Position numbers and translations under genes: made by a program. The notes below the pieces were generated by a model. That model had not been told where the DNA came from. It ran no database searches and saw only the letters and a list, made by a program, of their open reading frames with translations. Of a stretch of DNA of 61,158 bases, positions 15,064-61,158 are shown one piece after another. The stretch comes from an uncultured Selenomonadales bacterium. Lineage in GTDB: Bacteria; Bacillota; Negativicutes; Selenomonadales; Selenomonadaceae. Where the stretch lies: assembly GCA_946411735.1 (NCBI GenBank), contig CAMKFB010000006.1:1-61158 (forward strand). Direction: 5' to 3'. Positions within the stretch are counted from its first letter, which is position 1, and the number at the start of each line of letters is the position of its first letter.

Positions 15064-15093
15064 GTTCCCGATAGGGAACAAAGGGTGGGTGGG
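15064..15093 (+). repeat. Hairpin/G-quadruplex repeat, copy R1
   Basis: Stem GTTCCC (15064-15069) pairs with GGGAAC (15074-15079) over a GATA loop, followed by AAA and GGGTGGGTGGG (15083-15093). On the minus (coding) strand the element starts five bases after the polA stop codon and reads C-rich tract then hairpin. It could serve as the 3' end or processing site of the polA message, but there is no T-run. Confidence 0.7.
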
Positions 15094-15098
15094 AGAAA

Positions 15099-17426
15099 TT
15101 ATTTTGCCTCCGCCCAATTTTTTCCGACGGCGATGTCGACGTCCAAATTCACCTTGAGCGCCGCCGCCCCCTCCATCGAGCGTCGAACGATCTCTTTGAC
15201 GCGGTCGAGCTCATTTTCGACCGTCTCAATCAGAAGTTCGTCGTGCACCTGCAAGATCATTCGGCTTTTGAGCGGCGCCAGCTTTTTTTCGGTCTCAATC
15301 ATCGCGATCTTGATGATATCCGCCGCCGTCCCTTGGATGGGGGTGTTCATAGCCAACCGCTCCGCCAACGACCGACGGTTGAAGTTGCGATCATTGATCG
15401 ACGGCAGGGAGCGCCGCCGCCCGAACATCGTCGAGACATAGCCGCTGCTCCGCGCGGAGTCGATAGTCGCGTCAAGATACTCTTTGACCTTCGGATATTG
15501 AGCGAAGTACTTCTCGATATACTCCGCCGCCTCGTTGCGAGAAATACCCAGCTCCTTCGACAGCCCGTAATCGCTTTGACCGTAGATGATGCCGAAGTTG
15601 ACAGCTTTCGCCTTGCGACGGAGATCGGGCGTGACGTGCTCGAGCGGCACGCCGAATACTTCAGACGCCGTCCGCGCGTGAATGTCCTGCCCGCTGTTGA
15701 AAGCGTCGATCAGATTTTGATCGTCGGACATATGCGCCAGCAGCCGCAACTCGATCTGAGAGTAATCCGCTGACAGCAGACAATCAAAACCCGCGCCCGC
15801 CTCGAACAGCGAACGAATTTCGCGCCCCTCCGAGGTGCGGACGGGAATGTTTTGCAGGTTGGGATCGGAGCTCGACAGCCGCCCCGTCGCCGTCACAGTC
15901 TGATTGAAATGAGTGCGGACGCGATGGGTCTTCGGGTCAATGAACTGCCGAAGCCCGTCGATGTACGTCGACTGCAGTTTCGACAGCGTTCGATGGTTGA
16001 TGATCGCCTCGACGATCGGATGCTTGTCGCGCAGCTCGAACAAAACCGCCGCGTCCGTCGAAAAGCCGCTTTTGGTTTTCTTGACGGGCGGCAGTTTCAA
16101 TTGATCGAAGAGGATTTCGGCGAGCTGCCGCGTGGAGTTGATATTGAAAGTTTGACCGGCAAGTTCATAAATGTTTTGCTCGATCCGCTTGAGGCGCTCG
16201 GCGATCTCGACGGATTTTTGATCGAGCCGATCGACGTTGACAAAAATGCCGCGCTCCTCCATATCGGCGAGCACTTTGACCAGAGGAAGTTCGATCCGAT
16301 TGTAGAGATCGAGCATATCCTCCGCGCGGAGTTTTTCCAAAAGTTGAGCGCCGACCTCTTTGAGGGACGGGCGAAGCGTGACGAGCGCGCCCGGGTTGAC
16401 GAGATAACTCATCAGATCGACGTCGAAAATCTGATCGCAATCGAGCGCGACGCGGGCGTGAAGAATATTTTTGAGGTTGTAGACAAACGGAAGGTCGACG
16501 GCATAAGGCGGCAGCTTTTCTTCCTCGACGGCGTTGACGGTGCCGAAAAGGTTGTCGGAGGCGTCGAAAATCGAGTGGATTTTTTTCTTTACGGCGGCAA
16601 GCGCGAGCCGATTGCAAAACTCGTCGGCTTTGATGAGATCGGGCGCGATGACAAACTCCTCGGGCTCGAAAACGACCTCGGGAACGGCGCGCTCGATCGT
16701 TGCCAGCCGCTTTGAAAGGCGCGCACTGTCTTCACCGTCGATCAACTTTTGACGGATGCTTTTGGAGTCGACGGCATTGATGCGGTCGTAAATATTTTCG
16801 AGCGAGCCGAACTGACGGATAAGTTTCGTGGCAGTCTTGTCGCCGATGCCCTTGACGCCCGGGATGTTGTCAGACGAATCGCCGCGCAGTCCCTTATAAT
16901 CGACGAGCTTATCGGGCGCGAAGCCGTAATCGGCGGCAAATTTTTCGGCGTCGTAAGTCTGATTGGAGCCGACATTTTTCGAGAGGATGACTTTGACGGT
17001 CGGACCGATGAGCTGGAGCGCGTCGCGATCGCCGGTGACGATGAACACTTCAAAGTTCCGCGCGGAGGCTTGCTCGGCAAGGGTACCGATGATGTCGTCG
17101 GCCTCGAAACCGGCAACGCCGATTGTGTTGATGCCGACGGCTTGAGCAAACTGATCGAGCAACGGGAATTGTTGAGAAAGCTCGGCGGGCATTTGGGAAC
17201 GATTGCCTTTATACTCGTCGAAAAGCTCATTACGAAAGGTGTGCTTGCCGACGTCGAGGGCGATGGCAGCGGCGGCGGGACGGAGCTCGGCAATCAACTT
17301 GAGAGTGATGTTGGCAAAACCGAAAACGGCGCCGGTGAGAGTGCCGTCGGGCGCCGAGAGCATGGGTAGAGCGTAGAAGGCGCGATAAAAAACGCTGCTG
17401 CCGTCGATCAACAAAAATTTTTTCAT
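15099..17426 (-). CDS. polA: DNA polymerase I without a functional proofreading domain
   Basis: A 775-residue enzyme, shorter than the usual 850-930. Residues 1-285 are the 5' nuclease (LLIDGSSVFYRAFYALP; GFEADDIIGTLA; GDRDALQLI; GLRGDSSDNIPGV). About 100 residues (290-385) replace the 3'-5' exonuclease domain and show no D-x-E motif. The polymerase domain is intact: motif A DYSQIELRLLAH, motif B RRKAKAVNFGIIYG, motif C QVHDELLIE. It fills gaps and removes primers. Loss of proofreading is known in Bacillus and Thermus Pol I, but here PolC also lacks it. The ATG at 17426 overlaps the transpeptidase stop by four bases (ATGA). Confidence 0.96.
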   Translation of the reverse strand: MKKFLLIDGSSVFYRAFYALPMLSAPDGTLTGAVFGFANITLKLIAELRPAAAAIALDVGKHTFRNELFDEYKGNRSQMPAELSQQFPLLDQFAQAVGINTIGVAGFEADDIIGTLAEQASARNFEVFIVTGDRDALQLIGPTVKVILSKNVGSNQTYDAEKFAADYGFAPDKLVDYKGLRGDSSDNIPGVKGIGDKTATKLIRQFGSLENIYDRINAVDSKSIRQKLIDGEDSARLSKRLATIERAVPEVVFEPEEFVIAPDLIKADEFCNRLALAAVKKKIHSIFDASDNLFGTVNAVEEEKLPPYAVDLPFVYNLKNILHARVALDCDQIFDVDLMSYLVNPGALVTLRPSLKEVGAQLLEKLRAEDMLDLYNRIELPLVKVLADMEERGIFVNVDRLDQKSVEIAERLKRIEQNIYELAGQTFNINSTRQLAEILFDQLKLPPVKKTKSGFSTDAAVLFELRDKHPIVEAIINHRTLSKLQSTYIDGLRQFIDPKTHRVRTHFNQTVTATGRLSSSDPNLQNIPVRTSEGREIRSLFEAGAGFDCLLSADYSQIELRLLAHMSDDQNLIDAFNSGQDIHARTASEVFGVPLEHVTPDLRRKAKAVNFGIIYGQSDYGLSKELGISRNEAAEYIEKYFAQYPKVKEYLDATIDSARSSGYVSTMFGRRRSLPSINDRNFNRRSLAERLAMNTPIQGTAADIIKIAMIETEKKLAPLKSRMILQVHDELLIETVENELDRVKEIVRRSMEGAAALKVNLDVDIAVGKNWAEAK

Positions 17427-18661
17427 TCCTCACCGCCGTCCGCTTTTGATTCGACTTCCGCCTTCGGCGAGACCTCCGCCTTCGATTGAGTCTCCGCCTT
17501 CGATTGAGCCTCCGCCTTTGGCTCGATCTCCGCCTTCGGTTTGGGTTCTGTTGTCGGCTCGACCGTCGGCGCCGGTTTTACTTCTGTCGAAGATTTCTCA
17601 TCGGACTTCTTCCGCTTCTTCTTGTCCTTCGGATCAGGCTCGTCGGGGATCGGCAGCCGCTCTACCGTCTGCAGCCGATATATCCGACTCTTGCCGTTGG
17701 CGCCCTCCACATTCTGCAGCCCGCCGTCGAGACTGAACAGCACGATCGCATCGTCCGCATTCAAATACAACTGCCGCTTGCGCTCGATCCCGACCACCTC
17801 GCCGTACGACGTCCGCAATGTCGACTCGCCCGCGCGCCACTCCAGCTTCGTCTTCGACGCCATCGCTATCGGCACCGCCGGCAAATACGTGATCCCCTCG
17901 CGCACCACCGCCTTGGAGTCGAACGTTCGACCGTCCCGCTCGAAATTCTCCACGCGCCGCCCGTTGAGCTCGATCGTATACGCCTTCGCTATGTACGTCG
18001 GCTCCCCGTCCGAGTCATAAATTTTCTTCTCGATATCCGCGTCGCTCTCGAACGCCGACACGCCGTACGGCGCCAGCCACTTATTCACATACGTCGCATC
18101 AATCGGCTGCCAACCGTAGCCGTCGGGATAAATATAATACACAATCTCGTCGTCGGCGTTCTTCTCGACCACCACCCGATTGTAGGTGATCTCGACCGGC
18201 GTGCCGATATCAACCTTGTCGAACAGCCGCTCGACATCCGCCTCGCGCATCCTCACGCAGCCGTTCGACACGTAATGCCCGATGCTGTCGGGGCGATTGG
18301 TGCCGTGAATGCCGTAATTGCCCCAAATCTGCATCCATCGATAGCCGAGCGGATTGCTTTCGCCCGAGGGAATTTCGTATTCGGGATTGGACGGATCGAT
18401 CCAAGGCGGGTCGATCTCCTTCGTGTTGATTTTGTAGTAACCGACGGGCGTGGGCGTCGACGGCTTGCCGAGTCCGAGCGGGAACATCTCGATCCGAACA
18501 CTGCCGTCGTAAAGCGACAACATTCGGCTTGCCGAGTTGATCACGATTTTTCGGATCGGTTTTTCGACGGGCTGATTGTTGGTCGGCGCCGCCGAAGCAG
18601 GAGCGGTCAGTCCGAAGAAGAGTCCCGCGCTCAACACCAACGCCGCAAACTTTTTCAACAT
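17423..18661 (-). CDS. L,D-transpeptidase (YkuD family) with C-terminal Lys-Ala-Glu repeats
   Basis: A 412-residue exported protein. A signal peptide ends near APASAA (residue 25); the YkuD domain spans about 38-165 with HGTNRP and the catalytic SNGCVRM; residues 225-310 resemble a copper-amine-oxidase-N/stalk domain; and the tail (from about 335) is lysine-rich then a degenerate KAE/KAEIEP repeat. YkuD enzymes form 3-3 peptidoglycan cross-links or attach proteins to peptidoglycan. The start is ATG at 18661 with GAAGGTG upstream; the preceding TTG is one codon earlier. A near-consensus promoter lies at 18699-18728, making this the first gene of the operon that continues to polC. Confidence 0.92.
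   Translation of the reverse strand: MLKKFAALVLSAGLFFGLTAPASAAPTNNQPVEKPIRKIVINSASRMLSLYDGSVRIEMFPLGLGKPSTPTPVGYYKINTKEIDPPWIDPSNPEYEIPSGESNPLGYRWMQIWGNYGIHGTNRPDSIGHYVSNGCVRMREADVERLFDKVDIGTPVEITYNRVVVEKNADDEIVYYIYPDGYGWQPIDATYVNKWLAPYGVSAFESDADIEKKIYDSDGEPTYIAKAYTIELNGRRVENFERDGRTFDSKAVVREGITYLPAVPIAMASKTKLEWRAGESTLRTSYGEVVGIERKRQLYLNADDAIVLFSLDGGLQNVEGANGKSRIYRLQTVERLPIPDEPDPKDKKKRKKSDEKSSTEVKPAPTVEPTTEPKPKAEIEPKAEAQSKAETQSKAEVSPKAEVESKADGGEE
17457..17540. repeat. Tandem coding repeat in the L,D-transpeptidase tail
   Basis: Imperfect 18-bp units (core TCCGCCTTCGATTGAG on the plus strand) encode the (S/P)KAE(A/T/V) repeats. The units are in frame, so slippage would change tail length without a frameshift. 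Confidence 0.75.
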
Positions 18662-18698
18662 CAATGCGCACCTTCATTCTTGCAACATAATTTTGCTC

Positions 18699-18728
18699 AT
18701 TATAGCATGGCGCGAAATTTTTTATCAA
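18699..18728 (-). promoter_or_regulatory. Strong sigma-70 promoter of the ldt-polA-polC operon
   Basis: Minus strand TTGATA (18723-18728) and TATAAT (18699-18704) with an 18-base spacer, 38 bases before the transpeptidase start. All seven downstream genes overlap or are closely spaced, so this promoter probably drives the whole 10.5-kb unit. Confidence 0.75.
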
Positions 18729-18768
18729 GCAATCACGGCGGCTTAAGATTTTTTCCGTCGACGCCGAT

Positions 18769-18796
18769 AAAAAATAAAACGCCGCAGGTTGCGGCG
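18769..18796 (-). terminator. Possible minus-strand terminator
   Basis: CGCCGCA (18780-18786) pairs with TGCGGCG (18790-18796) over a 3-base loop; on the minus strand it is followed by TTTTATTTTTT. It would insulate the transpeptidase promoter from transcripts arriving from the flagellin/tRNA side. Confidence 0.55.
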
Positions 18797-18814
18797 CAGG
18801 GAGGCGAGTGACCT

Positions 18815-19081
18815 TTGTGGATTTCAAAAGTTGAGGATTTGAGCGAGCAGAAGGATTCGATTCAGCTTAACAATCCCATGAGCAATCAAAATTTCATGCG
18901 CTCGATGTCGGCGGGCGGGCGTCGATCGATCGACATGGTCGCGATGAGCGAACTGACGAGAGAGTCGGCGGCATTTGTTACGTTCAGCCGCTCGAGCATT
19001 CGGCAATCGGGAGTGATTCAATCGGCAGCGCCGACTGCTTCTCTGTCGGGCGTCGACATGAATTTATTCTCGGCAGACTAA
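18815..19081 (+). CDS. Small protein of unknown function (88 aa)
   Basis: An open frame starting TTG at 18815, ten bases after GGGAGG, and ending at a terminator. The translation (MWISKVEDLSEQKDSIQL..., ending SGVDMNLFSAD) is rich in Ser and Met, has no membrane segment, signal or cysteine, and matches no family I recognise. A proper ribosome-binding site, GC-rich third positions and a terminator directly behind the stop support it being real. It is the only plus-strand gene between 3.6 and 20.2 kb, lying between the transpeptidase promoter and the tRNA/flagellin unit. No clear promoter was found. Confidence 0.5.
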   Translation: MWISKVEDLSEQKDSIQLNNPMSNQNFMRSMSAGGRRSIDMVAMSELTRESAAFVTFSRSSIRQSGVIQSAAPTASLSGVDMNLFSAD

Positions 19082-19107
19082 AAAATCCGCTTCGCGCGGA
19101 TTCTTTT
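19081..19107. terminator. Bidirectional Rho-independent terminator
   Basis: AATCCGC (19084-19090) pairs with GCGGATT (19096-19102) over TTCGC. A T-run follows on the plus strand and an A-run precedes, so it can end both the small plus-strand gene and the flagellin/tRNA transcript on the minus strand. Confidence 0.8.
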
Positions 19108-19134
19108 ATATTATAAACGATTTAATTTCATCAT

Positions 19135-19208
19135 TGGAGCGGGCAATGGGAATCGAACCCACCTCTTCAGCTTGGGAAGCTGACGTTCTACCGATGAACT
19201 ATGCCCGC
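19135..19208 (-). tRNA. tRNA-Gly (anticodon CCC)
   Basis: A 74-nt cloverleaf with encoded CCA. The acceptor stem GCGGGCA/TGCCCGC is perfect; the anticodon stem-loop is TCAGC-TTCCCAA-GCTGA, giving anticodon CCC (reads GGG); the T-arm contains GGTTCGATTCC. The 5' end lies only five bases after the flagellin stop codon, so the tRNA is probably processed from the flagellin transcript unless a promoter is hidden inside that gene. Confidence 0.97.
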
Positions 19209-19213
19209 CTCTG

Positions 19214-20083: not shown

Positions 20084-20127
20084 GTCGATCACCCTCTCCT
20101 CAATCATCTAATCAACTTCACGATGCA

Positions 20128-20156
20128 ATTCTACAACGTTCTTTCACCATTGGCAA
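20128..20156 (-). promoter_or_regulatory. Sigma-70-type promoter of the flagellin gene
   Basis: Minus strand TTGCCA (20151-20156), 17-base spacer, TAGAAT (20128-20133), 45 bases before the flagellin start. No sigma-28 motif (TAAA...GCCGATAA) is seen in the interval. Confidence 0.65.
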
Positions 20157-20216
20157 GTGTTTCGACGAAAAAATTTTTTGCAGGGAATTTTTTTTTCGTG
20201 TCGAAACGCATTTTCT

Positions 20217-20609: not shown

Positions 20610-20642
20610 TCTCTCGAGATTGATCGGAAGGGAGGTGATTTT

Positions 20643-21314: not shown

Positions 21315-21335
21315 TTTTTTGGGAGGCAATTGATA

Positions 21336-28931: not shown

Positions 28932-29030
28932 TTATGCGGGCGCCGTCGAAAGCGGCGGCAGTCGAATGGGGGCGGCAGCCCCCGTAAGCGTGGCGCCTGC
29001 AAGGCGCATAGGGCGGGTGGGCGGGAAAAA
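28932..29030 (+). repeat. Hairpin/G-quadruplex repeat, copy R2
   Basis: Contains a GGGGGC/GCCCCC hairpin (around 28965-28980), a stem GCGCCT (28993-28998)/AGGCGC (29002-29007) with a GCA loop, then GGGCGGGTGGGCGGG (29011-29025), a perfect four-tract G-quadruplex motif with single-base loops. The G-tract ends 14 bases before the AAGGAG of the STAS gene. A left-end GGGCGCC (28938-28944) is shared with copies R3 and R4. Confidence 0.8.
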
Positions 29031-29355: not shown

Positions 29356-31569
29356 ATGCCGGCACTGCTCAAAGACATAGTCGAAGTATTTTTCGGACGC
29401 GGCAAGGTCGACATACGTCGGCGCCTGTTGCGTCTGATTCTTTTCGGCTCGATTTTGACGTTCGCGCTGATGAGCGTGCTGTCGATGATCGGAGTGATTG
29501 CGACGTGGAGCGTTTTGAATGAGCGCGGCGCGGAGCTGAGCGAGTCCGCCGCCGAGTACATCGAGCAATTCGCCGAAAATCAGGCGCGCTTGCATATGCT
29601 TATGACAGTCGAAAGCAAAGCGCGACATATCCGCGCGGACATGCAGAGCATCGGCATCGACGTCAAATACATTGCCGCGCAGATGCACAGAATTTTATCC
29701 GAGCCGCAAAATTATCCTCCGATCGCGCTGCCCGATCCGCGCGTTCAATCAATCGATACCGGCGAGATCTACGTTTTTCGCAGTCGGGCGCTCGATCAAA
29801 ATCGCAATCCCGCCGTCGAAAACGAGATCGCGCTTGCCTCCAACATCGCCAACAGTCTCAAAGTCATAGCGAATGATTTTTACGAGGGCTATCAGGCTTC
29901 GCTGTTGATCGGCTCGAGGCATGATTACATCGTTTGCGTCGACATCGACGTCGGCGACACTCATCCCGTCGTCTTCACCGAAGAATTTATGAATGATTTT
30001 GTGCCGAGCGAGCGCCCGTGGTATCGCGCCGCGATCAATGCCGGCGACTTGACTTACACGGATTTGTACATTAGCGCCGACGGTTATCCCACGATTGATT
30101 GCGTGACGCCGTATTACGACGCCGAGGGCATTGCGGGCGTGGTGTCGATTGGTTGCAATATCGATTCGCTTTACAATGTGACCGTCGAGGAGGGCGCGCG
30201 CTCCAACGAAGTCAATTTCATAGTCGACCGCGCGGGTTATGTGCTGCTGTCTTCGCAACACAACGGCATTTTCGAGGCGGGCACCGACAGAAATCTTGCC
30301 GAGTACAAAAATTTGAGCACGCTGATCAATCGGATGAAGGCGGGCGAGAAGGGCGTCGAGCTTGTCGAGATACACGGCAAGGAATATTTTATTGCGTTTG
30401 CGCCGATCAACATCGAGGGCTGGAGCCTGGGCACAATGGTTGCGACCGAAGACGTGATCGCGCCGGCGAAAGTGGCGCGCCGCAACATCGAGCGGCAAAT
30501 GGACGACTTCAAAGACAGCATCGGCAATCTGTTTGCGGTGCTGACGATAATCGCGCTGATCCTGCTGTCGCGGCTGCTTTACGTGATGGTCAGGAGCGGC
30601 GCCGAGGTTGCCGGCAATTTCGTCAAGCCGATCCAAGAGTTGACGGACGGCGTGAGAGAGATTGCGGGCGGGAATTTCGACAAGAAGTTGCGAATCCGAA
30701 CGGGCGACGAGATTGAGCATCTTGCAGTATGTTTCAACGCGATGACTGACGAGCTTCAAAAATACATGGCGAATTTGGCGAAGGTCTCTGCGGACAAGGA
30801 GCGAATTGCGACGGAGCTCGACGTTGCGACGGAAATACAGGCGTCGATGCTGCCGCGGGATTTTGATTTCGGTCGATCGGAGTTCGAGTTGTACGCGACG
30901 ATGCACGCGGCGAAAGAAGTGGGCGGCGATTTTTACGATTTTTATCTGCTCGACGACGATCGATTGGTCGTGACGATTGCGGATGTGAGCGGCAAGGGCG
31001 TGGCGGCGGCGTTATTCATGGTGATCTCGAGGACGATCATGAAGAATTTCGCGATGACGATGACCGGCTCGAGCGATGTCGGGGCGCTGGTGGCGTGCAC
31101 AAATCAACAGCTGTGTCAAAACAACGACGCGATGATGTTCGTGACGATGTTCGTCGGCGTGCTCGACCTCAAGACGGGGCGATTTACGTACGTCAACGGC
31201 GGGCATAATCCGCCGCTGGTGTATCGCGCGTCGGAGGATCGCTTCCGATATCTCAACGGCTCCGCGCGGAACTATGCGCTCGGGCTGATGGACGCTGCGG
31301 AATATGAGCAGGAGACGATCGATTTGTCGGCGGGCGACGTGATTTATCTTTATACGGACGGCGTGACGGAGGCGCTCAACGAGTCGGAGGAGCTTTACGG
31401 CGACGATCGGCTCGAGGAGTGTTTGAATCGGACGTCGACGGGGCGGCTGAGCGTGGAGGAGATATTGGCGGCGGTTCGCAAGTCGCTCGACGAGTACGTG
31501 GGGGCGGCGGATCAGTCGGACGATATCACGATGATTGGATTGAAATATCGGGGCGGCGCGCATGATTGA
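29356..31569 (+). CDS. Membrane sensor PP2C phosphatase (Cache-HAMP-SpoIIE), copy 1
   Basis: A 737-residue receptor phosphatase. One helix at about 28-52, an extracytoplasmic sensor to about 375 that looks like a double Cache domain (ERPWYRAAINAGDLTYTDLY, a typical dCache stretch), a second helix near 384-405, HAMP (FVKPIQELTDGVREIAGGNF), a short coil and a PP2C/SpoIIE domain with metal-binding motifs GGDFYDF, ADVSGKGVAAALFM, NGGHNPPL, LYTDGVTEA and DDITMIGL. It probably dephosphorylates the neighbouring STAS protein when its ligand (often an amino or organic acid) binds. The ATG follows the STAS stop directly, with no clear ribosome-binding site, so translation should be coupled. Confidence 0.92.
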   Translation: MPALLKDIVEVFFGRGKVDIRRRLLRLILFGSILTFALMSVLSMIGVIATWSVLNERGAELSESAAEYIEQFAENQARLHMLMTVESKARHIRADMQSIGIDVKYIAAQMHRILSEPQNYPPIALPDPRVQSIDTGEIYVFRSRALDQNRNPAVENEIALASNIANSLKVIANDFYEGYQASLLIGSRHDYIVCVDIDVGDTHPVVFTEEFMNDFVPSERPWYRAAINAGDLTYTDLYISADGYPTIDCVTPYYDAEGIAGVVSIGCNIDSLYNVTVEEGARSNEVNFIVDRAGYVLLSSQHNGIFEAGTDRNLAEYKNLSTLINRMKAGEKGVELVEIHGKEYFIAFAPINIEGWSLGTMVATEDVIAPAKVARRNIERQMDDFKDSIGNLFAVLTIIALILLSRLLYVMVRSGAEVAGNFVKPIQELTDGVREIAGGNFDKKLRIRTGDEIEHLAVCFNAMTDELQKYMANLAKVSADKERIATELDVATEIQASMLPRDFDFGRSEFELYATMHAAKEVGGDFYDFYLLDDDRLVVTIADVSGKGVAAALFMVISRTIMKNFAMTMTGSSDVGALVACTNQQLCQNNDAMMFVTMFVGVLDLKTGRFTYVNGGHNPPLVYRASEDRFRYLNGSARNYALGLMDAAEYEQETIDLSAGDVIYLYTDGVTEALNESEELYGDDRLEECLNRTSTGRLSVEEILAAVRKSLDEYVGAADQSDDITMIGLKYRGGAHD

Positions 31570-33760
31570 GAAATTTGAGAGACTGATTGCGATATTCCTC
31601 GGGCAAAACCGCATCGACATACAAAGTCGCGTGTTGCGATTGGTGCTGGCCGGCAGCCTGCTGACGTTCGCGGCGATGGGGCTGCTGTCGCTGACGGGCA
31701 TCGTCACGACGTGGCGCATACTCGACTCGCGCGGTCAACAGCTCGGCGCGTCGGCAGCCGATTACACGGAAAAATTTGCGGAGCGGCAAGCGAAATACAA
31801 TCTGTCGAAGGACAATCAAGTGCGCGCGCAGCTGATCGGCAATTATCTGACGGATGTGCGGCTGGACGTGCTGATGCTGTCGCGTGAGATGACGCAAATT
31901 TTGTCGACGCCTGAGCGATATCGCCCGAGGATTTTGCCCAACGCGCTCGAAACGATCGTCCTATCGCGGACGCCGTATGTGCATTACTCGCCCGAGCTGG
32001 CTCGACGGGGCGTGACGGAGGAACTTCGGCGGGAGATCGAACTGACATCGAACATCGCCGACGTGCTTGAGACGATCATCGAATACAATCCGTGCACATT
32101 CGTCGGGTCGAAGAACGGCTACGTGCTCAAGGCGGATGTGATGCCGGCGAATACGATGATCACATCTCTGAGCAAGGAGCCCGCGCGAAGCACCTACGAC
32201 GCTCGGGAACGCGCGTGGTACAAATTGGGCGCTTCGGTCGAGGATCCGGCGTTCACCGACGTTTACATTGCGGCGATGACGGGCGAACCGTGCGTTTCGT
32301 GCGTGATGCCGTACTACGACGGCGACGGGAATTTTGCGGGCGTGGTCGGGCTCGATTGCAATACGACGAAGATTTACGAGCAGATTCGCGAGAGCGCGAT
32401 CGGCGGCGGCGGATTTTGTTTCATAATGAGCGCGAAGGGCGCGGTGATTTATTCGACGCAGCTTGACGGCGATTTTGTGACGGGCGCGAATTTGTTTGAC
32501 GAAAACGGCGGCGTCGGAGTGAAGGCGATCGGTCGGCTGATGCAAGCGGGTGTCAAGGGCGTGACGGAGATCGAGTCGCGCGGTCGGCGATATTACGTGG
32601 CGTATGCGCCGATGGAAGCGGCGGGCTGGAGTCTTGCGACGGTGCTCGACAAGAGCGAGGTGACGGAGCCGGCGATGATCGCGCGCGGCAACATCCTCGA
32701 TCGGATCGACGGCTTCAAAAATAATTTCGGGCGACTGTTTTTATTCCTGTTGGGGGTTGCGTTGGTGCTGATGCTCGGCGTGATGTACGGGCTGTTTCGC
32801 GTGAGCGTCAAGCTGTCAAATCGATTCGTCAAGCCGATCCAAGAGTTATCGGACGGCGTGCGCGACATAGCGAGCGGCGATTTCGACAAGAAACTCGACG
32901 TCAAGACGGGCGATGAGCTGGAGCATCTGGCGACGTGTTTCAATGCGATGACCGAAGAGCTCAAGATGTACATGAAGAATGTGTCGAAGGTGGCGGCGGA
33001 TCGGGAGCGGATAGAGACGGAGCTCAACGTTGCGACAGACATTCAAACGTCGTTTCTGCCGCGGGATTTCGATTTTGATCGGACGGATTTCGAGTTGTAT
33101 GCGACGATGCATGCGGCGAAGGAAGTGGGCGGCGACTTCTACGATTTTTATTTGCTCGACCACAATCATCTGATGGTGACGATTGCGGACGTGAGCGGCA
33201 AAGGCGTGCCGGCGGCGCTGTTTATGATGGTGTCGAAGACGATCCTGAAAAACTTCGCGATGACGGGCGCGGGCGCGGACGATGTGGGAACATTGGTGGC
33301 GCGGGCGAATCGGCAGCTGTGCGAAGGCAATGACGCGATGATGTTCGTGACGGCCTTCGTGGCGCTGATCGATCTGAAGACGGGGCGGATGACGTACGTC
33401 AACGGCGGGCACAATCCTCCGCTGGTATACCGCGCGTCGGAGGATCGATTTGAGTATTTGACGGGCTCCGCGCGGAACTATGCGCTCGGGTTGATGGACG
33501 ATGCGGAGTTCGAGCAGGAGACGATCGATCTGTCGCGCGGCGATGTGATATACCTTTACACGGACGGCGTGACGGAGGCGCTCAACGAAGCGGAAGAACT
33601 ATTCGGCGACGATCGACTTGAGCAAGCGCTGAATCGATTGAAGGCGCGGCAGATGAGCGTGGAAGAAATATTGGCGGCAGTGCGGAGCGCGCTCGATGAA
33701 TACGTCGGCGCCGCGCAACAGTCCGACGACATCACCATGCTCGGCTTCCGATTGAAATAA
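31562..33760 (+). CDS. Membrane sensor PP2C phosphatase (Cache-HAMP-SpoIIE), copy 2
   Basis: A 732-residue paralogue with the same order: N-terminal helix, dCache-like sensor (ARERAWYKLGASVEDPAFTDVY), second helix, HAMP (FVKPIQELSDGVRDIASGDF) and PP2C (GGDFYDF, ADVSGKGVPAALFM, NGGHNPPL, LYTDGVTEA, DDITMLGF). The phosphatase halves are very similar while the sensors are much more diverged, so two signals seem to feed one output (inference). It overlaps copy 1 by eight bases. A bidirectional terminator follows. Confidence 0.92.
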   Translation: MIEKFERLIAIFLGQNRIDIQSRVLRLVLAGSLLTFAAMGLLSLTGIVTTWRILDSRGQQLGASAADYTEKFAERQAKYNLSKDNQVRAQLIGNYLTDVRLDVLMLSREMTQILSTPERYRPRILPNALETIVLSRTPYVHYSPELARRGVTEELRREIELTSNIADVLETIIEYNPCTFVGSKNGYVLKADVMPANTMITSLSKEPARSTYDARERAWYKLGASVEDPAFTDVYIAAMTGEPCVSCVMPYYDGDGNFAGVVGLDCNTTKIYEQIRESAIGGGGFCFIMSAKGAVIYSTQLDGDFVTGANLFDENGGVGVKAIGRLMQAGVKGVTEIESRGRRYYVAYAPMEAAGWSLATVLDKSEVTEPAMIARGNILDRIDGFKNNFGRLFLFLLGVALVLMLGVMYGLFRVSVKLSNRFVKPIQELSDGVRDIASGDFDKKLDVKTGDELEHLATCFNAMTEELKMYMKNVSKVAADRERIETELNVATDIQTSFLPRDFDFDRTDFELYATMHAAKEVGGDFYDFYLLDHNHLMVTIADVSGKGVPAALFMMVSKTILKNFAMTGAGADDVGTLVARANRQLCEGNDAMMFVTAFVALIDLKTGRMTYVNGGHNPPLVYRASEDRFEYLTGSARNYALGLMDDAEFEQETIDLSRGDVIYLYTDGVTEALNEAEELFGDDRLEQALNRLKARQMSVEEILAAVRSALDEYVGAAQQSDDITMLGFRLK

Positions 33761-42984: not shown

Positions 42985-43012
42985 AGGGTTGTCTCCTCTC
43001 GAATATTTTTTT

Positions 43013-43068
43013 CCCGCCCACCCGCCCCATGCGTCTTGCAGACGCCACGCTTTTTTTGGCGCCCGCCC
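43013..43068 (-). repeat. Hairpin/G-quadruplex repeat, copy R3
   Basis: On the minus strand: left end GGGCGCC, stem GCGTCT/AGACGC (43040-43045 and 43031-43036) with a GCA loop, then GGGGCGGGTGGGCGGG (43028-43013). Compared with R2 the stem has T-A in place of C-G at the same pair, a compensatory change, while loop and G-tract are unchanged. It lies in the leader of trpB. Confidence 0.8.
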
Positions 43069-44523: not shown

Positions 44524-44711
44524 AATTTATTCTCCCGCCCGATTGGGCAGAGTTTGATGGGGCGCCGCCGCCGCTCCCCCCCCCCCCCATCGGCAGCGCC
44601 CTTTAGTCGAGGCGACAGCCACGCCCGGCGTCGACGCCGTACCCCGCTCGAGCTGCCGCCATGCGTTGTTTCAAAAGACGTAGTCTTTATGGGGTGGGCG
44701 GGCGGGATAAA
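44524..44711 (+). repeat. Composite hairpin/G-quadruplex repeat region, copy R4, with a C13 tract
   Basis: The left side has TCTCCCGCCC with a GCCC/GGGC hairpin, a degenerate inverted copy; the middle has GGGGCGCCGCCGCCGC and 13 consecutive C (44576-44588); the right side has stem AAAGAC (44674-44679)/GTCTTT (44683-44688) with a GTA loop and GGGGTGGGCGGGCGGG (44691-44706). The right end lies five bases from the speE stop. Two inverted repeat ends flanking a central segment recall a BIME-type pair of REP elements. Confidence 0.7.
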
Positions 44712-54766: not shown

Positions 54767-54800
54767 ATCAATCGAGCACCGACAATCGATAACAACGGCG

Positions 54801-54828
54801 TTGACATTTGTCGGCGTCATGCTATAAT
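54801..54828 (+). promoter_or_regulatory. Consensus sigma-70 promoter of rpsU
   Basis: Perfect TTGACA (54801-54806) and perfect TATAAT (54823-54828) with a 16-base spacer, 35 bases before rpsU. This is the strongest promoter in the window, fitting a ribosomal-protein gene. Confidence 0.85.
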
Positions 54829-54862
54829 CACTGGCAGTTTTTAGCGGAGGGAGGGATAAGAC

Positions 54863-55042: not shown

Positions 55043-55066
55043 TCCGCCAACGCATGTAAAAATCAT

Positions 55067-55102
55067 GCCGCTGTCTTTCGTTGCGATTGACAGCGGCTTT
55101 TT
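55067..55102 (+). terminator. Terminator of rpsU
   Basis: GCCGCTGTC (55067-55075) pairs with GACAGCGGC (55089-55097), a 9-bp stem, followed by five T. Confidence 0.9.
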
Positions 55103-55248
55103 CGTGATTATCTGCAAAACGGCTTGATTTTTTGACAATCAATCAGTACAATCGTTATTTAGAATGTCAATTCAAATGACGATAACCATTTTTGTGAGAG
55201 TTCTCGACGGCAATAAAAATTTTATCGGAAGGGAGAACGATATGCGCA

Positions 55249-57438
55249 ATGCCAAAAAAGATTGATGATCCGTATTTGAAGATGCAAGCGCGCGAAGAAG
55301 TCGCGTCGGACTACAGCACAGGCATAGAAAATCGAACGGCGATAATATCGCTCGTCAAGATATTGCAGCATTACGGCGTAAAAAACGTGCAAAAGATTTT
55401 AAAGAAGCACGAGAAAGTTTTCGATCGCGATCTCGAGTGGCAAGAGCTGAGAGGTATCGCGAAAAAATATCGAATCAAGGGCGCGATGATCCGCCCGACG
55501 GTCGATGAGCTTAGAGAGGTCGAATATCCCGCGATCGCCAAGATGAATGACGGAGCGTTCGTCACGATCGGCTCCGCCAATGACGAGGTCGTATTGATGC
55601 TCGACCCGCGTCAAAAGAAGCCGACTGCCATGTCGGTCAAGCAGTTCGTCGAGTCGTGGTCGAACGAGATGATGACCTTCACGCCGTCGATGAGCTGGGA
55701 TTTCATAAAGAAGAAGTACAACCTCGACTTCTTCTTCATGGTTTTCAAGCGCTACAAAAAATCGCTGTTTGAAGTCCTCACCGGCACATTTTTCCTGCAG
55801 CTGATGGGGATCGGAATGCCGCTCATCACGCAGGTCATCATCGACAAAGTCATCGGCAACCAAGGCATGTCGACGCTGATGGTGCTCGGCTGGAGCATGT
55901 GCGTTTTCTTCTTAATGCAGGGGTTGCTCAATCTGATGAAGACGTACCTGCTGAACCATGTCGTCAACAAGCTCGACGCAATCCTTGGCACGAGAATGTT
56001 CCGACACTTGATAGCGCTGCCGGTTCCGTATTACGAGCGAAGGCGCGTGGGCGATACAATCTTGCGTGTTCGAGCGCTGACAATGATCCGAAGGTTCCTG
56101 ACGGACATGGGCATCAGCGTCTTTTTGGACGTGTTGTTTTCATTCGTCGGCATCGCATTTATGCTGTGGTACTCGGTGCCGCTGACGTTGATCTCGTTGC
56201 TGATTGTTCCACTCTACGTCCTTCAAAACATCTGGGTTTATCCGCTCGTCATGGCAAAGGCTTCCGCAATTTGGCAAACCCTTGCGGTGAACAACTCATT
56301 CCTGATCGAGTCGATCAATAACGTCGAGACAGTCAAAGCGCTCGCGGTCGAACCGCAGTTCAATCATAAGTGGGAAAATCTCGTCGCGCGCAACATTCGA
56401 GCGAATTTCGAGAAGACAAAGCTCACCCTCTTGCTCAACGCGTTCAACAGTTGCGTGCAGGGCTTGCTTTCGATGGCGATCCTGTGGTTTGGCGGGCATA
56501 TGGTTATGGACGGGCAATTCACGCTCGGACAATTGATCGCCTTCCAAATGATTTCACGTCAAGCGCTCACTCCATTGACGACGCTGCTGACGATGTGGCC
56601 GCGCGTTATCATGGCGGGCATGGCGCTCGAGCGTATCGGTGACATTCTCAACGCCGGCGCCGAGCCGATCGCGAAGGAACTCGGAGTGCGCGGACCGGCG
56701 CGCGTCGACGGCGCGATCACCATGACGGATGTTTCTTTCCGATATCGCATCGATCTGCCGCTGGTTTTGAAGGGGATCAATTTAGAGGTCGGTCCCGGCG
56801 AAAAGGTAGGCATTGTCGGGCGCTCGGGCTCCGGCAAGTCGACGCTCACCAACCTTGTGCAGCATCTTTACGCGCCCGAGACCGGCGATGTGGTGATCGG
56901 CGGAGTTAAGACGCGCGACGCCAACCTTGCTTGGTTGCGCGAACAGATCGGCGTCGTTCGACAGGAAAATTATCTGTTCAATGCCAGCGTTCGTGACAAT
57001 ATCGCAATCAGCAAACCGACGGCGACGATGGACGAGATTATCCGCGCGGCGCGACTTGCCGGAGCGCACGACTTCATTCTCGAGCTCAAAGAAGGTTACG
57101 ATACGAATGTCGGCGAGCGCGGCGACGCGCTTTCCGGCGGTCAACGTCAACGGATTGCGATCGCTCGAGCGCTTCTTGAAAACCCGCCGATCTTGATCTT
57201 CGACGAGGCTACTTCCGCTCTCGATTACGAATCCGAACGCATCATCCTCAATAATATGGAGGCGATCGGCGCGCGCCGCACGATGTTGATCATCGCCCAC
57301 CGCTTGAGCGCGGTTCGCAAGTGCAATAAGATAATCGTGATAGACAAGGGCGAGATCGTCGAGCAGGGCACGCACGATGAACTGTTGAAGCGCGACGGCA
57401 TGTACCGCTATCTTTACAATCAACAAGAGGGAAAGTGA
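55249..57438 (+). CDS. Type I secretion ABC transporter with inactive C39-like domain (first)
   Basis: A 729-residue HlyB/LapB-type exporter: N-terminal C39-like domain (about 15-135), six-helix membrane domain (about 160-440) and ATPase (Walker A GRSGSGKS, signature LSGGQ, Walker B ILIFDEA, H-loop IAHRLS). In the C39-like domain Thr (TAIISLVKILQHYG) aligns with the catalytic Cys and Ala (GAFVTIG) with the His, so it cannot cleave a leader; like HlyB it would dock an uncleaved C-terminal signal. The ATG at 55249 is 14 bases from GGGAG; an ATG at 55242 with ideal spacing opens only a 7-codon frame. It is first of ABC-MFP-ABC. Substrate not in window. Confidence 0.93.
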   Translation: MPKKIDDPYLKMQAREEVASDYSTGIENRTAIISLVKILQHYGVKNVQKILKKHEKVFDRDLEWQELRGIAKKYRIKGAMIRPTVDELREVEYPAIAKMNDGAFVTIGSANDEVVLMLDPRQKKPTAMSVKQFVESWSNEMMTFTPSMSWDFIKKKYNLDFFFMVFKRYKKSLFEVLTGTFFLQLMGIGMPLITQVIIDKVIGNQGMSTLMVLGWSMCVFFLMQGLLNLMKTYLLNHVVNKLDAILGTRMFRHLIALPVPYYERRRVGDTILRVRALTMIRRFLTDMGISVFLDVLFSFVGIAFMLWYSVPLTLISLLIVPLYVLQNIWVYPLVMAKASAIWQTLAVNNSFLIESINNVETVKALAVEPQFNHKWENLVARNIRANFEKTKLTLLLNAFNSCVQGLLSMAILWFGGHMVMDGQFTLGQLIAFQMISRQALTPLTTLLTMWPRVIMAGMALERIGDILNAGAEPIAKELGVRGPARVDGAITMTDVSFRYRIDLPLVLKGINLEVGPGEKVGIVGRSGSGKSTLTNLVQHLYAPETGDVVIGGVKTRDANLAWLREQIGVVRQENYLFNASVRDNIAISKPTATMDEIIRAARLAGAHDFILELKEGYDTNVGERGDALSGGQRQRIAIARALLENPPILIFDEATSALDYESERIILNNMEAIGARRTMLIIAHRLSAVRKCNKIIVIDKGEIVEQGTHDELLKRDGMYRYLYNQQEGK

Positions 57439-57458
57439 AACGCTGAGGTGATAGATCG

Positions 57459-58814
57459 ATGAGAAAGTTTTGGAACTGGCTGATCCACGGCGACGAACGC
57501 GAGAAGGAGACGGAGTTCCTGCCGGCGATATTGGAGGTCACCGAAACGCCGCCTTCGCCGACGGGTCGAATCATAATGTGGTCGGTGCTGCTGCTTTTGG
57601 TGGTGGCGCTGGCGTGGGCGATCCTCGGAAAGATCAATGAGGTGGCGATTGCCGACGGCAAAGTCATCCCGATCGGTCAGATCAAAACCGTACAGGTCAA
57701 AAACAAGGGCATCGTTTCGGAAATTCGAGTGCAAGAGGGCGATTACGTCAACGAGGGAGATGTCCTCGTTGTGCTCGACCCGACGACCACCACCGCCGAT
57801 TACGACAGTCTCAAAAAGCGCGCGGCGTATTATCGGCTCGACATTCAGCGTTTGACGGCGGAGCTTACCGGTCAACCGTTCGTGCCGGCGAAGGATCCCG
57901 ATCTCGAGGCGCATGATCTTGCGGCGGAGTTGGCGCTCTATCAGAGTCGGACGAGCGATTATCAGACGCAACGTCAGTCGCGCGTCGATATCATTGCTCA
58001 GCGCAAGGCGCGCTTGGAGGCGGCGCAGACCACTTACGAAAAATACGCCGAAGGGCTGAGGATCGCACGCGATAAAGAGGCGCGCTTAACGCAGCTGATT
58101 GCGGAAAATGCGATCTCCGAATTTCAACTGCTCGAGCAGCAGAAGGAGACGATCGATTACGAGAAGAACGCGCAGGCGGAGCTCGATTCGATCAACAGCA
58201 TACACGCGGAGATCGCCGAGGCGGAGCAAAATCTTGCCAACATCGACGCGTCATATCGGAAGGACATTATGACTTCGCTGGTCGAGGCGAAGAAGGAGTA
58301 TTATTCGATTACCGAGTCGATCAAAAAGGCCGACGAGGACTTTCGGATGGCCACGATTTACGCGCCGACCAGCGGCAAGATTTATAACCTGGCGATTCAT
58401 ACCATCGGCGGCATCGTCACCGACGCGCAGCCGTTGATGCAGATTGTGCCGGATGATGTGCGGCTCGTGTTCGAGGTCTACGCCGAGAATAAGGACATCG
58501 GCTTTATCAAGCGCGGCATGGAGGCCGAGGTCAAGGTTTCGACGTTTAACTTTCAGAAGTTCGGCATGGTCAAGGCGGAGGTCGAGGAGATCAGTGCCGA
58601 CGCCGTCGATAACCCGAGCAATCCCGAGCAGCACGGCAAATTCAAACTGCTGTTGAATCCGATCAGCAATGATATCAACGTCTACGGCGAGACCGCTAAG
58701 CTCGTGGTCGGCTACGGCGTCTCGGCGGAGATCAAAATCAAAGAAAAGCGCATCATCGACTTCTTCCTCGATCCGTTCAGGAAGTACACTCACGAAGCCT
58801 TGAGGGAGCGGTGA
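57459..58814 (+). CDS. Type I secretion membrane-fusion protein (HlyD family)
   Basis: A 451-residue adaptor: short cytoplasmic N-terminus, membrane helix (IIMWSVLLLLVVALAWAIL, 38-56), lipoyl half-motif (VKNKGIVSEIRVQEGDYVNE), a long coiled-coil hairpin (about 115-310), second lipoyl half (MATIYAPTSGKIYNLAIHTI) and beta-barrel (VEVKVSTFNFQKFG-type) region. It bridges the ABC protein to an outer-membrane TolC-like channel, implying an outer membrane. The ATG at 57459 follows AGGTGA, 20 bases after the first ABC gene. Confidence 0.94.
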   Translation: MRKFWNWLIHGDEREKETEFLPAILEVTETPPSPTGRIIMWSVLLLLVVALAWAILGKINEVAIADGKVIPIGQIKTVQVKNKGIVSEIRVQEGDYVNEGDVLVVLDPTTTTADYDSLKKRAAYYRLDIQRLTAELTGQPFVPAKDPDLEAHDLAAELALYQSRTSDYQTQRQSRVDIIAQRKARLEAAQTTYEKYAEGLRIARDKEARLTQLIAENAISEFQLLEQQKETIDYEKNAQAELDSINSIHAEIAEAEQNLANIDASYRKDIMTSLVEAKKEYYSITESIKKADEDFRMATIYAPTSGKIYNLAIHTIGGIVTDAQPLMQIVPDDVRLVFEVYAENKDIGFIKRGMEAEVKVSTFNFQKFGMVKAEVEEISADAVDNPSNPEQHGKFKLLLNPISNDINVYGETAKLVVGYGVSAEIKIKEKRIIDFFLDPFRKYTHEALRER

Positions 58815-58817
58815 TTT

Positions 58818-61142
58818 ATGGCGGACGATAAGATCAATCTCAACAAAGACAATCCCGACGGCAAGGACGACAAGTCGCTCGTCCCGCAAGGCGGCGGCTC
58901 CGACGGCAAGGGTAAAGGTCAGGCGCTTGCCAAGATCGACATTGCGAAGGTTCCCGCCGATCAAGTCAATCAGGCGAGCAAAGCCGTCTCGACCGACGTC
59001 AAAAAGCCCGAGGACGGCGGGCGCGTCAACGGCATCGACACCGGCATCGCGTGCTTGATCGCGATCGCCAAGTACTACAACATTCCGGCGGACTATCGTC
59101 AGCTTGAGCGCGCCTATGTGCTTGAGGAGGGCTCGATCGATGTTCTCACGATCGTCCGCGCGGCGCGCGATCTCAAGCTCAAGGCGCGCGCCTACTCCGA
59201 TCTCAAGGAGGAGGATTTAAAGGCGCTGGTTTATCCGGTGCTGATCCGATTGAAGGACAATCGCAGCATCGTGATCACGACGATCCGCGACGACGACATC
59301 TATATAATGGACCCGGTCTTTTCGCAACAGCCGGTGAAGGCGGATCGATATAAGCTGCTCAACGATTGGACCGGCGAAGCGGTGTTGTTCACGCGGCGCT
59401 ACGAGCTGTCGAGCAAATTCATCAAGTTCGGTTTCCGCTGGTTCATCCCCGTCATCATCAAGTATAAGACGCAACTGCAGAGCGTCCTTTTCATGTCGCT
59501 GCTGCTTCAGCTGCTCGGGCTGGCGTCGCCGTTCTTCGTTCAGAACATCATCGACAAGGTGCTCGTCCACCGCGCCGCCGACGCGCTTGACATTTTCGTC
59601 CTCGGCATGGCGACATGTATGATCTTCCAAACGTGGATGACATCATTGCGAGCCTATCTGTTCTCGAACATCGCCAGCAAAATGGACGCAACCTTATCGG
59701 CGCGGTTGTTTAAAAACATTACGGCGCTGCCGGTCTCCTACTTCCAAAAGTGGCAGGTCGGTGATGTGGTCGCGCGTACCGGTGAGCTCGAAACGCTCCG
59801 CTCTTTCCTGACGGGCTCGAGCCTGACGATCATTCTCGACATCATCTTCGCGGTCGTCTACTTCGGCGTCATGTTCTTCTACAGCCGAATGTTGTCGATG
59901 GTCGTGCTCGTGATGCTGCCGCTGTTCGTGCTCTTGAATCTGATCGTCGCGCCGATTTTCAAGCGAATGATCAACGAACAGTTCTTGATCGACAGTGAGC
60001 GGCGCTCCTTTATGATCGAGGCGATCACCGGCATTCACACCGTCAAAAGTTCGAGCGTCGAGACGAATTTCATCCGTCGCTACGAAGAAATTCTCGCGCG
60101 GTTCGTGACGGCTTCCTTCAACGTCGCCAACATCGCCAACATCGCCAATACGATCGGTACTTTCCTGCACAGCATTTTCACGCTGGCGATTCTGTGGATC
60201 GGCGCGTATTACGTGATGGAAGGCGAAATTTCCGTCGGCGAGCTGATTGCGTTCCAAATGATCGCCGGTCAGTTGATCGCGCCGGTGATGCGGCTGATCA
60301 ATCAGTGGCAGTACTTTCAACAGATTCGCGTGTCGATGGAGCGCCTGGGCGATATCATGAACGAGGAAGTCGAGCCGGCGTTCAATCCGTCGCGCACGAC
60401 TCTGCCGAGCATTCGTGGCGACATCGCGATCGAGAAATTGATATTCAGTTACACGCCCGAGGGCGGCAAGGTGCTCGACAACGTCAACATCCGAATACCG
60501 GCGGGCATGAAGGTCGGGATCGTGGGGCGCTCGGGCTCGGGCAAATCGACGCTGACGAAGTTGATACAGCGACTGTTCTTGCCGGACTCGGGGCGCATTT
60601 TGATCGACGGCGTTGACATTGCTCAAGTCGAGCCGGCGTGGTTGCGTCGACAAATCGGCGTCGTGCTGCAGGACAGCATGCTTTTCTCCGGCACGATCGA
60701 GGAAAATATACGACTTGCTTCGCCGAACGCTACGCATGAGGATGTGGTGAAGGCGGCGCGGTTGGCGGGCGCGGACGAGTTCATCGAACAGTTCCCGCAT
60801 GGATACGACACATTTGTCGGTGAGCGCGGCTCGTTGTTGAGCGGCGGTCAACGGCAGAGGATCGCGATCGCGCGCGCGCTGATCTCCGATCCGCGAATTT
60901 TGATCTTCGACGAGGCGACCTCAGCGCTCGATTATGAGTCGGAGAATATCATAATGAGCAACATCGAGCCGATCTCGAAAGGGCGGACGATGTTGATGAT
61001 CGCGCACCGACTGTCGACGGTCAGAGATTGCGACGCGATCGTCGTGATCGAGAAGGGTCGCATCATCGAAGCCGGCTCGCACGAAGAACTGTTGAAGCGC
61101 AACGGCGCCTATTATCGCTTGTATCAAGCGCAAAATGCATAA
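58818..61142 (+). CDS. Type I secretion ABC transporter with inactive C39-like domain (second)
   Basis: A 774-residue exporter with a 70-residue hydrophilic Gly/Lys/Asp-rich N-terminal extension (LNKDNPDGKDDKSLVPQGGG) before the C39-like domain. There DTGIACL replaces DCGxACL (Cys to Thr), and RSIVITT stands where the catalytic His would be. Membrane domain (about 205-480) and ATPase (GRSGSGKS, LSGGQ, ILIFDEA) are complete. It starts three bases after the fusion-protein gene. Two full ABC proteins with one adaptor could form a heterodimer or serve two substrates. The stop is directly followed by the R5 repeat at the window edge. Confidence 0.93.
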   Translation: MADDKINLNKDNPDGKDDKSLVPQGGGSDGKGKGQALAKIDIAKVPADQVNQASKAVSTDVKKPEDGGRVNGIDTGIACLIAIAKYYNIPADYRQLERAYVLEEGSIDVLTIVRAARDLKLKARAYSDLKEEDLKALVYPVLIRLKDNRSIVITTIRDDDIYIMDPVFSQQPVKADRYKLLNDWTGEAVLFTRRYELSSKFIKFGFRWFIPVIIKYKTQLQSVLFMSLLLQLLGLASPFFVQNIIDKVLVHRAADALDIFVLGMATCMIFQTWMTSLRAYLFSNIASKMDATLSARLFKNITALPVSYFQKWQVGDVVARTGELETLRSFLTGSSLTIILDIIFAVVYFGVMFFYSRMLSMVVLVMLPLFVLLNLIVAPIFKRMINEQFLIDSERRSFMIEAITGIHTVKSSSVETNFIRRYEEILARFVTASFNVANIANIANTIGTFLHSIFTLAILWIGAYYVMEGEISVGELIAFQMIAGQLIAPVMRLINQWQYFQQIRVSMERLGDIMNEEVEPAFNPSRTTLPSIRGDIAIEKLIFSYTPEGGKVLDNVNIRIPAGMKVGIVGRSGSGKSTLTKLIQRLFLPDSGRILIDGVDIAQVEPAWLRRQIGVVLQDSMLFSGTIEENIRLASPNATHEDVVKAARLAGADEFIEQFPHGYDTFVGERGSLLSGGQRQRIAIARALISDPRILIFDEATSALDYESENIIMSNIEPISKGRTMLMIAHRLSTVRDCDAIVVIEKGRIIEAGSHEELLKRNGAYYRLYQAQNA

Positions 61143-61158
61143 TTTATCCCACCCGCCC
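61143..61158 (-). repeat. Hairpin/G-quadruplex repeat, copy R5 (cut by window end)
   Basis: TTTATCCCACCCGCCC immediately follows the ABC transporter stop codon, matching the start of R1 and R4 in the same position relative to a stop. A hairpin would be expected just beyond the window. Confidence 0.6.

Follow-up and report, generated by a model that had tools for sequence, protein, structure and literature searches.

A short repeat, in which a small hairpin stands in front of a series of guanine runs, is dispersed through the genome of an uncultured bacterium of the Selenomonadaceae, of which the window analyzed here is a stretch of 61,158 nucleotides that makes up the entire contig C6 (genome G000; a 2.42-Mb draft in 135 contigs, 93% complete). 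The unit measures about 35 to 45 bp and consists of a hairpin of 5 to 10 bp, usually with a GNA or GNNA loop, followed after 0 to 4 nt by the G-tract GGGYGGGYGGGYGGGA. It forms a family of about a hundred copies, whose stems vary and stay paired, whose loops keep one polarity, and which are found solo as well as in composites; the element was inserted where a congener has no copy. We favor its reading as a nonautonomous mobile repeat that acts like repetitive extragenic palindromes (REPs) and their REPIN arrangements, with the folded G-rich strand as the substrate of a single-strand-DNA enzyme—a reading that we hold to be about evenly poised between right and wrong. Membership in the family mobilized by REP-associated tyrosine transposases (RAYTs) is not established.

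An earlier note on this DNA had proposed a dispersed family, and copies beyond the window bear this out in a whole-genome scan with patterns and a covariance model. The exact G-tract GGGYGGGYGGGYGGGA is present at 92 sites in G000 and at 25 in G060, one congener of G000 (a draft 91% complete), and at none in 64 other genomes of the genus. With at most one mismatch, GGGYGGGTGGGCGGGA gives 90 sites in G000, all of which were read. For such a near-symmetric tract the reversed control is unfair, as the pattern is almost identical when read backwards (57 versus 90 and 56 versus 92 sites in G000). With the tail NAAA added, GGGYGGGYGGGYGGGA occurs at 47 sites in G000—against 1 in the reversed control—and at 7 in G060, and is absent from 298 other genomes of the class. 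The covariance model, built from 23 copies and run on G000, G060, and 58 further congeners, returns at least 110 matches in G000 (110 of 110 scored candidates) and 38 in G060; weak matches appear in 29 of the 58 others, with 1 to 5 each and never more than 5. Of 28 loci fetched from these congeners, the middle was read by eye: many hold a lone GGGCGGGA in coding-like sequence, and in a few there are G-runs between genes with no clear hairpin. The hairpin-only pattern AAGGCGN{1,2}AGCCTT is found in 11 of 60 congeners. Background from its reversed control is seen in many congeners, and just G000 with 8 and G060 with 16 rise above the rest. Contigs C6 (at window position 61158), C20, C66, and C88 end within an element or at most 75 bases from one, so that assembly probably fails at the repeat and leaves the copy number underestimated. 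A viral contig (L301:20-39) also holds the G-tract pattern, preceded there by the loopless palindrome CCTGGGCCCAGG without a GNA loop.

The hairpin is tied to the G-tract more closely than base composition would give. A hairpin of at least 5 bp lies within 8 nt of the tract in 72 of 90 copies, compared with 19% of dinucleotide shuffles, and strong hairpins stand beside it in 60% of copies, compared with 2.2% of shuffles. Covariation was assessed in a set of 23 copies that were selected to have a 6-bp hairpin with a GNA loop, and whose pairing is thus partly by choice: 52 cells show a change on both sides and the covariation score is 0.987 versus 0.324, each with 0 of 500 shuffles as high, and a single G–U occurs among 134 paired cells. 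In this set, as in the copies read genome-wide, stems vary with pairing kept, as the earlier note had expected from the window copies it labeled R2 and R3. These differ, as it had stated, at exactly three positions over about 45 bases, two of which are a C–G to T–A swap at one stem pair; their likeness was also detected as repeat I1 (63 nt, 84%). A second such case is given by the copies C11:46323 and C11:47211, which precede two similar neighboring gene copies with flanks alike on both sides and read GAAGGAC GTA GTCCTTC and GAAGGGC GACA GCCCTTC, respectively, i.e., a paired change together with a swap from a GNA to a GNNA loop.

The loop follows a rule of its own. In G000 and G060, 133 copies have enough upstream sequence for a survey, and 88 of them carry a scored hairpin. 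Read on the G-rich strand, GNA or GNNA loops are found in 71 of these 88 and the reverse-complement loops TNC or TNNC in 0, while shuffles of the 88 upstream stretches yield 13 GNA/GNNA and 16 TNC/TNNC loops among 443 hairpins. The copies share ancestry, and hence the 71 hairpins do not represent 71 independent events; G000 alone nevertheless holds 33 distinct GNA/GNNA stem–loop types, as counted from the last five stem bases and the loop. The closing pair is pyrimidine–purine in 70 of the 71. An internal control comes from perfect intergenic hairpins of at least 7 bp in the surveyed contigs of both genomes (C1 to C4 and the window in G000, 390,711 bases; 710,296 bases in G060): with a 3′ G-tract, 10 of 10 have a GNA or GNNA loop, and without an adjacent G-tract, 3 of 67 strand readings. 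Nineteen of the 21 tetraloops are not GNRA and two are, which together with the scarcity of G–U pairs points to single-stranded DNA rather than RNA. GNNA loops are stable in DNA. GNA loops make extraordinarily stable DNA minihairpins according to the title of Yoshizawa et al. 1997 (cited in PMC7432603 and PMC6479982), and their sheared G–A pair is described in PMC6479982. Further hairpins were noted in G060: at C37:35-328, AAGGC GTCA GCCTT hairpins recur at multiples of 35 bp, and many TGAAGGC ANNA GCCTTCA hairpins stand without a G-tract.

The G-tract prefers four runs. The surveyed G000 contigs hold 21 intergenic four-run sites, 8 three-run sites, and 0 longer ones, with 3 four-run sites in genes; the corresponding numbers for G060 are 21, 6, 0, and 0. 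Intergenic DNA makes up 7.8% of the surveyed G000 sequence, yet it harbors 21 of the 24 four-run sites—which, with the 92 exact sites, agrees with the REP trait of a short intergenic palindrome in high copy. Four G-runs with 1-nt loops are by their letters a quadruplex repeat, and the tract is predicted to form a quadruplex. Folding of the three full window copies with RNA parameters gives −46, −44, and −39 kcal/mol with a quadruplex term and −15, −10, and −5 kcal/mol without it, energies that show only that the sequence fits a quadruplex fold.

Insertion can be read from the comparison of G000 copies with 721,905 bases of G060. It yielded 19 rows with both flanks. Two were set aside, namely the second end of a composite and row C82, whose flanks do not closely bracket the copy; the other 17 were examined base by base. 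An interval was taken as empty if GGG-N-GGG is absent from both of its strands; this applies to 15 of the 17 orthologous G060 intervals and corresponds to the presence/absence trait of REPINs and bacterial interspersed mosaic elements (BIMEs). One of the 15, C30:19145, is doubtful, as a lone GGGA that may be a remnant directly adjoins the junction, and two of the 17 (C13:30408 and C13:39371) lie within called genes. The bracketed inserted stretches range from 67 to 436 bases, with C55:1965 as a clean 67-bp insertion. Between livH and livM, the gap measures 90 bp in G000 and 13 in G060. Among 29 loci fetched from relatives, 20 are bracketed on both sides, and the G-tract is present in 0 of these 20—8 of them have only TGA-CGAT-ATG—so the copy in G000 is a gain.

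The intergenic setting described in the earlier note holds for most copies: 101 of 108 in G000 lie outside genes as called by a simple codon-usage gene finder, and they take both orientations to transcription: in 47 the G-tract end faces a start codon and in 51 a stop codon, and 3 have no called gene on that side. The tract ends 16 to 29 nt before the start in 29 of the 47—a spacing sharpened by the gene finder, which favors starts with a Shine-Dalgarno sequence—and 0 to 10 nt from the stop in 25 of the 51. In 74 of the 88 copies with both sides known, the neighboring gene is closer on the G side than on the hairpin side once 22 nt are deducted for the hairpin. As the empty sites are short, the closeness to genes is probably due to short gaps and purifying selection and not to a signal at gene ends.

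Solo units, inverted pairs, and mosaics are all seen, in line with the inverted units or mosaics of REPINs and BIMEs. Of 98 copies, 27 have an inverted C-tract no more than 320 nt away on the hairpin side; on the G side, the count is 2 of 103. For a palindromic GGGCGCC module the counts in the same range are 46 of 98 upstream, on the hairpin side, and 1 of 103 on the G side. The earlier note had taken GGGCGCC as a common left end; it is visible by eye in three of its five places, and is part of a second palindromic repeat rather than a fixed end of the element. This second dispersed module, GGGCGCCGCCGACGC...GCGTCGGCGGCGCCC, whose loop holds two GGGTGGG stretches, is common upstream of the element and is found, among other places, at window positions 44549-44600 and at C1:4205-4280 of G000. 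Two more repeats were noted alongside: the perfect palindrome CTCCGCGCGGAG, seven times in the window (15448, 16320, 24853, 35899, 41747, 44066, and 46953) and frequent elsewhere in the genome, and a class of copies with GAAAAAATTTTTTC on either side of the G-tract (C14:23445, C33:9526, and others in G000), an arrangement that resembles a target duplication or a doubled arm.

Within the window, the element or a piece of it was read directly at all five places named earlier. Three are full copies with four G-runs. The first (28993..29026, forward strand; 56.7 bits) has a 6-bp hairpin at 28993-29007 with a GCA loop and G-runs at 29011-29026, and precedes the Shine-Dalgarno sequence and start (29056) of a STAS-domain gene; upstream of it, a mosaic on the same strand (28936..28992), read directly, contains a second hairpin at 28968-28983 (GGGGGC GGCA GCCCCC) and a GGGCGCC stretch. 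The next (43012..43045, reverse strand; 55.9 bits) has its hairpin, also with a GCA loop, at 43031-43045 and its G-runs at 43012-43027, and sits in the gap between 42984, the start of a PALP-domain gene, and 43078, the stop of a SIS-domain gene. The third (44674..44707, forward strand; 55.5 bits), with the hairpin AAAGAC GTA GTCTTT at 44674-44688 and G-runs at 44692-44707, abuts the stop of a spermidine synthase gene (44712, reverse strand). It belongs to a composite whose inverted second end, GCCCAATC GGGCGGGA with two G-runs, lies at 44533..44548 on the reverse strand (12.5 bits), and whose interior (44549..44673, unstranded) consists of the GGGCGCC module, with 13 consecutive C at 44576-44588, followed by other repeats. 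The remaining two places have three runs each, so that the G3N1G3N1G3N1G3 tract formerly ascribed to every copy applies to three of five. A degenerate copy at 15063..15094 (forward strand; 18.4 bits), with the hairpin GTTCCC GATA GGGAAC at 15064-15079 and G-runs at 15083-15093, sits between the polA stop (15099, reverse strand) and the start of the following gene (15041, reverse strand). The copy at 61147..61158 (reverse strand; 16.8 bits) lies 4 nt past the stop of an ABC transporter gene (61142) and is cut by the contig end, which is why its hairpin is not visible. A search for GGGNGGGTGGGNGGG with at most two mismatches gives 7 window matches, more than expected by chance, with a shuffled mean of 0.68 and 0 of 100 shuffles reaching as many; three of the seven (9759, and 44572 and 44574 in the C-run) are not copies. 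Similar stretches in neighboring genes were also noticed in the window: the neighboring genes at 29356-31569 and 31562-33760 have stretches about 81 to 87% alike, the first of them carrying SpoIIE, Cache, and HAMP domains and following a STAS gene, and 300-base stretches at 13458-13757 and 14470-14769 are 96% alike in adjacent genes, the second of which has a glycosyltransferase family 2 domain.

For the nonautonomous mobile repeat, the following course can be envisaged. Whenever the G-rich strand becomes single-stranded, e.g., during replication, it might fold into the minihairpin and a parallel G-quadruplex. This folded strand, and not the letters of the stem, would be recognized, cut, and rejoined by a putative single-strand-DNA enzyme—probably acting in trans—and insertions would persist chiefly in short intergenic gaps. 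A further step would be to see here a new mobile-DNA signal, in which a GNA/GNNA minihairpin and a four-run quadruplex on one strand are read by shape by a putative new enzyme, the quadruplex replacing the REP tag; we put this forward tentatively and with considerable doubt. If true, it would define a class of transposition substrates with free stem letters, in which only loop, pairing, and G-runs are constrained.

Several observations weigh against the mobile-repeat reading. Seven of the 108 G000 copies lie inside called genes, 17 of the 88 scored loops are neither GNA nor GNNA, and 30 of the 133 surveyed copies have no scored hairpin and a further 15 only an A/T palindrome. Two of five covariation measures, the pairs changed on both sides and the further pair types, are within the range of shuffles (327 and 425 of 500). 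Two of the 17 G060 intervals hold G-runs—at C7:56711 an own element in opposite direction, at C4:33101 a partial G-tract—and the direction of change was checked with third genomes at livH/livM only. No consistent target-site duplication was seen at the 17 junctions read by eye, and element boundaries vary. The best identity between different loci, taken from the best 45 of 335 copy-to-copy matches by length, is 88%; hence no very recent burst is seen. Lastly, no candidate enzyme emerged from Y1_Tnp (PF01797), Y2_Tnp (PF04986), or RVT_1 (PF00078), with other transposase families including DDE not searched. Y1_Tnp has no match above cut-off in G000 and G060, the best in G000 reaching 12.4 bits against a cut-off of 23 and containing an internal stop. 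Y2_Tnp has no accepted match in the two genomes, a weak negative because its control was detected in a single genome, and there below cut-off. RVT_1 has none at E 0.01, with the control detected in 3 of 14 genomes. Reverse transcription in the manner of a short interspersed nuclear element (SINE), suggested by the constant 3′ end and variable 5′ side, was rejected along with RVT_1, and IS91-like one-ended transposition along with Y2_Tnp and its weak control. An intrinsic terminator was discarded because the hairpins precede G-runs and not T-runs, and a known RNA family because Rfam at gathering thresholds finds one tRNA only in the window.

Among the rivals, the one best backed for the paired changes is replication template switching between the hairpin arms (quasipalindrome correction), which would repair each one-sided change and keep the stems paired in what is otherwise a mobile element recognized by the sequence of its G-tract. 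The very few G–U intermediates suit it, and according to published reports template switching gives rise to hairpins and preserves them (PMC8794818) and homogenizes inverted-repeat arms (PMC8604942). Selection on the stem, as the earlier note had it, is thus one reading of the paired changes among others. However, template switching is reported to invert the spacer as well (PMC8604942), whereas the loops here are never inverted, and hairpins of the same genomes that lack a G-tract have other loops, so that the GNA/GNNA rule is not explained by this process itself. The fixed loop polarity thus speaks against template switching as the whole story, and we rate it as rather unlikely. Somewhat further down we place a miniature inverted-repeat transposable element (MITE), whose G-rich ends (TCCCGCCCACCCGCCC...GGGCGGGTGGGCGGGA) would be terminal inverted repeats bound double-stranded by a DDE transposase, with the hairpins subterminal. 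Composites with inverted G-tracts at both ends, such as window 44533-44707, are what it would produce. Nevertheless, 71 of 98 copies are without a second end in the 320-nt range, the inserted stretches vary widely in length, and no target-site duplication is established.

It appears similarly improbable that the element belongs to a true RAYT/REP family and that the draft assemblies lack the transposase gene. The layout of solo units and inverted pairs, the intergenic site, the copy number, and the stem diversity are all REP-like, and partial Y1_Tnp matches turn up in three of 23 other congeners, where one sits at a contig end and another stays below cut-off. Multi-copy transposase genes are often lost from drafts such as these two, and the absence of Y1_Tnp is hence not proved. 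On the other side stand the lack of Y1_Tnp matches above cut-off in both carrier genomes and the near absence of the REP tags: within 6 nt of the scored hairpin foot, GTAG occurs in 0, GTGG in 4, and GGTT in 18 of 88 copies, and no base exceeds a frequency of 49% anywhere from −8 to −1, with the reservation that the foot is placed by score and a loosely placed tag could be blurred. Of the proposal of a REP-like family possibly moved by a RAYT transposase, the REP-like, dispersed, and inserted character is supported and the RAYT as mover is not. A cis-regulatory element kept for gene expression, i.e., an RNA hairpin and RNA quadruplex in 5′- or 3′-untranslated regions, seems very unlikely to us. 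It could account for the preferred spacings to start and stop codons; however, these follow from short gaps and the habits of the gene finder as well, the orientation is indifferent to transcription (47 versus 51), the tetraloops are mostly non-GNRA, and most sites read are not common to G060.

The family of the favored mobile repeat is of interest beyond its own genome. REPs and the ends of IS200/IS605 are known to be recognized by the shape of the single strand, and so are integron attC sites. With dozens of stem sequences under a constant loop rule and constant G-runs, natural variation within one family separates shape from sequence and offers a ready test of whether a G-quadruplex can belong to a transposition signal. 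The family also bears on the remodeling of intra-operon gaps by repeats, as one copy lies between livH and livM. No report of a hairpin and a four-run G-tract as one mobile unit was found in the parts of the open-access literature searched.

Closest are the REPs, REPINs, and BIMEs with their RAYT (TnpAREP; PMC3116915, PMC6006769, PMC8266576, and PMC3733652), which share the high-copy short intergenic hairpins, the many stem types, the inverted pairs, and the mosaics, as well as short loops and—for the element here by inference—strand-specific recognition of folded single-stranded DNA. REPs and REPINs are described with a GTAG/GTGG tag, short loops, and strand-specific recognition (PMC6006769, PMC8266576, and PMC3733652); the present element, by contrast, has a 16-nt four-run G-tract 3′ of the hairpin and hardly any GTAG or GTGG, keeps its loop class mostly fixed while the stem varies, and comes without a detected Y1 transposase in G000 and G060. 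The CGTC-tagged palindromic repeats (PMC3733652) likewise resemble REPs, stand mostly in head-to-head pairs, and are not known to have a transposase of their own; they differ in their tag, their stems of 8 to 9 bp, and their loops of 4 to 5 nt, with no G-tract in the accessible description. The ends of IS200/IS605 elements (PMC6006769) bear subterminal single-stranded DNA hairpins recognized by structure, as might hold here, but G000 and G060 have no TnpA match above cut-off.

Quadruplexes have been linked to such repeats before. REP oligonucleotides of Haemophilus parasuis and Cardiobacterium hominis give quadruplex-type circular dichroism spectra, in equilibrium with other forms (PMC7709200). 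Hence, the quadruplex that the earlier note thought unusual in a REP-like element is not new as such—for the element here it is a prediction—while the separate four-run tract beside the hairpin is: in the published case, the palindrome itself with its central TT makes two- or four-stranded quadruplexes, whereas a separate tract could fold within one strand. The quadruplex repeats GGGAATC and GGGGA(C/T)T of Xanthomonas and Nostoc (PMC4692102) resemble the element in their G-runs, their often intergenic sites, and their place near reading frames with a polarity toward the gene. However, they are head-to-tail heptamers at comparatively conserved places, whereas the element described here differs in place between congeners, and their polarity is opposite—mostly on the non-coding strand before the start and on the coding strand after the stop (PMC4692102), compared with the coding strand before the start in the present family.

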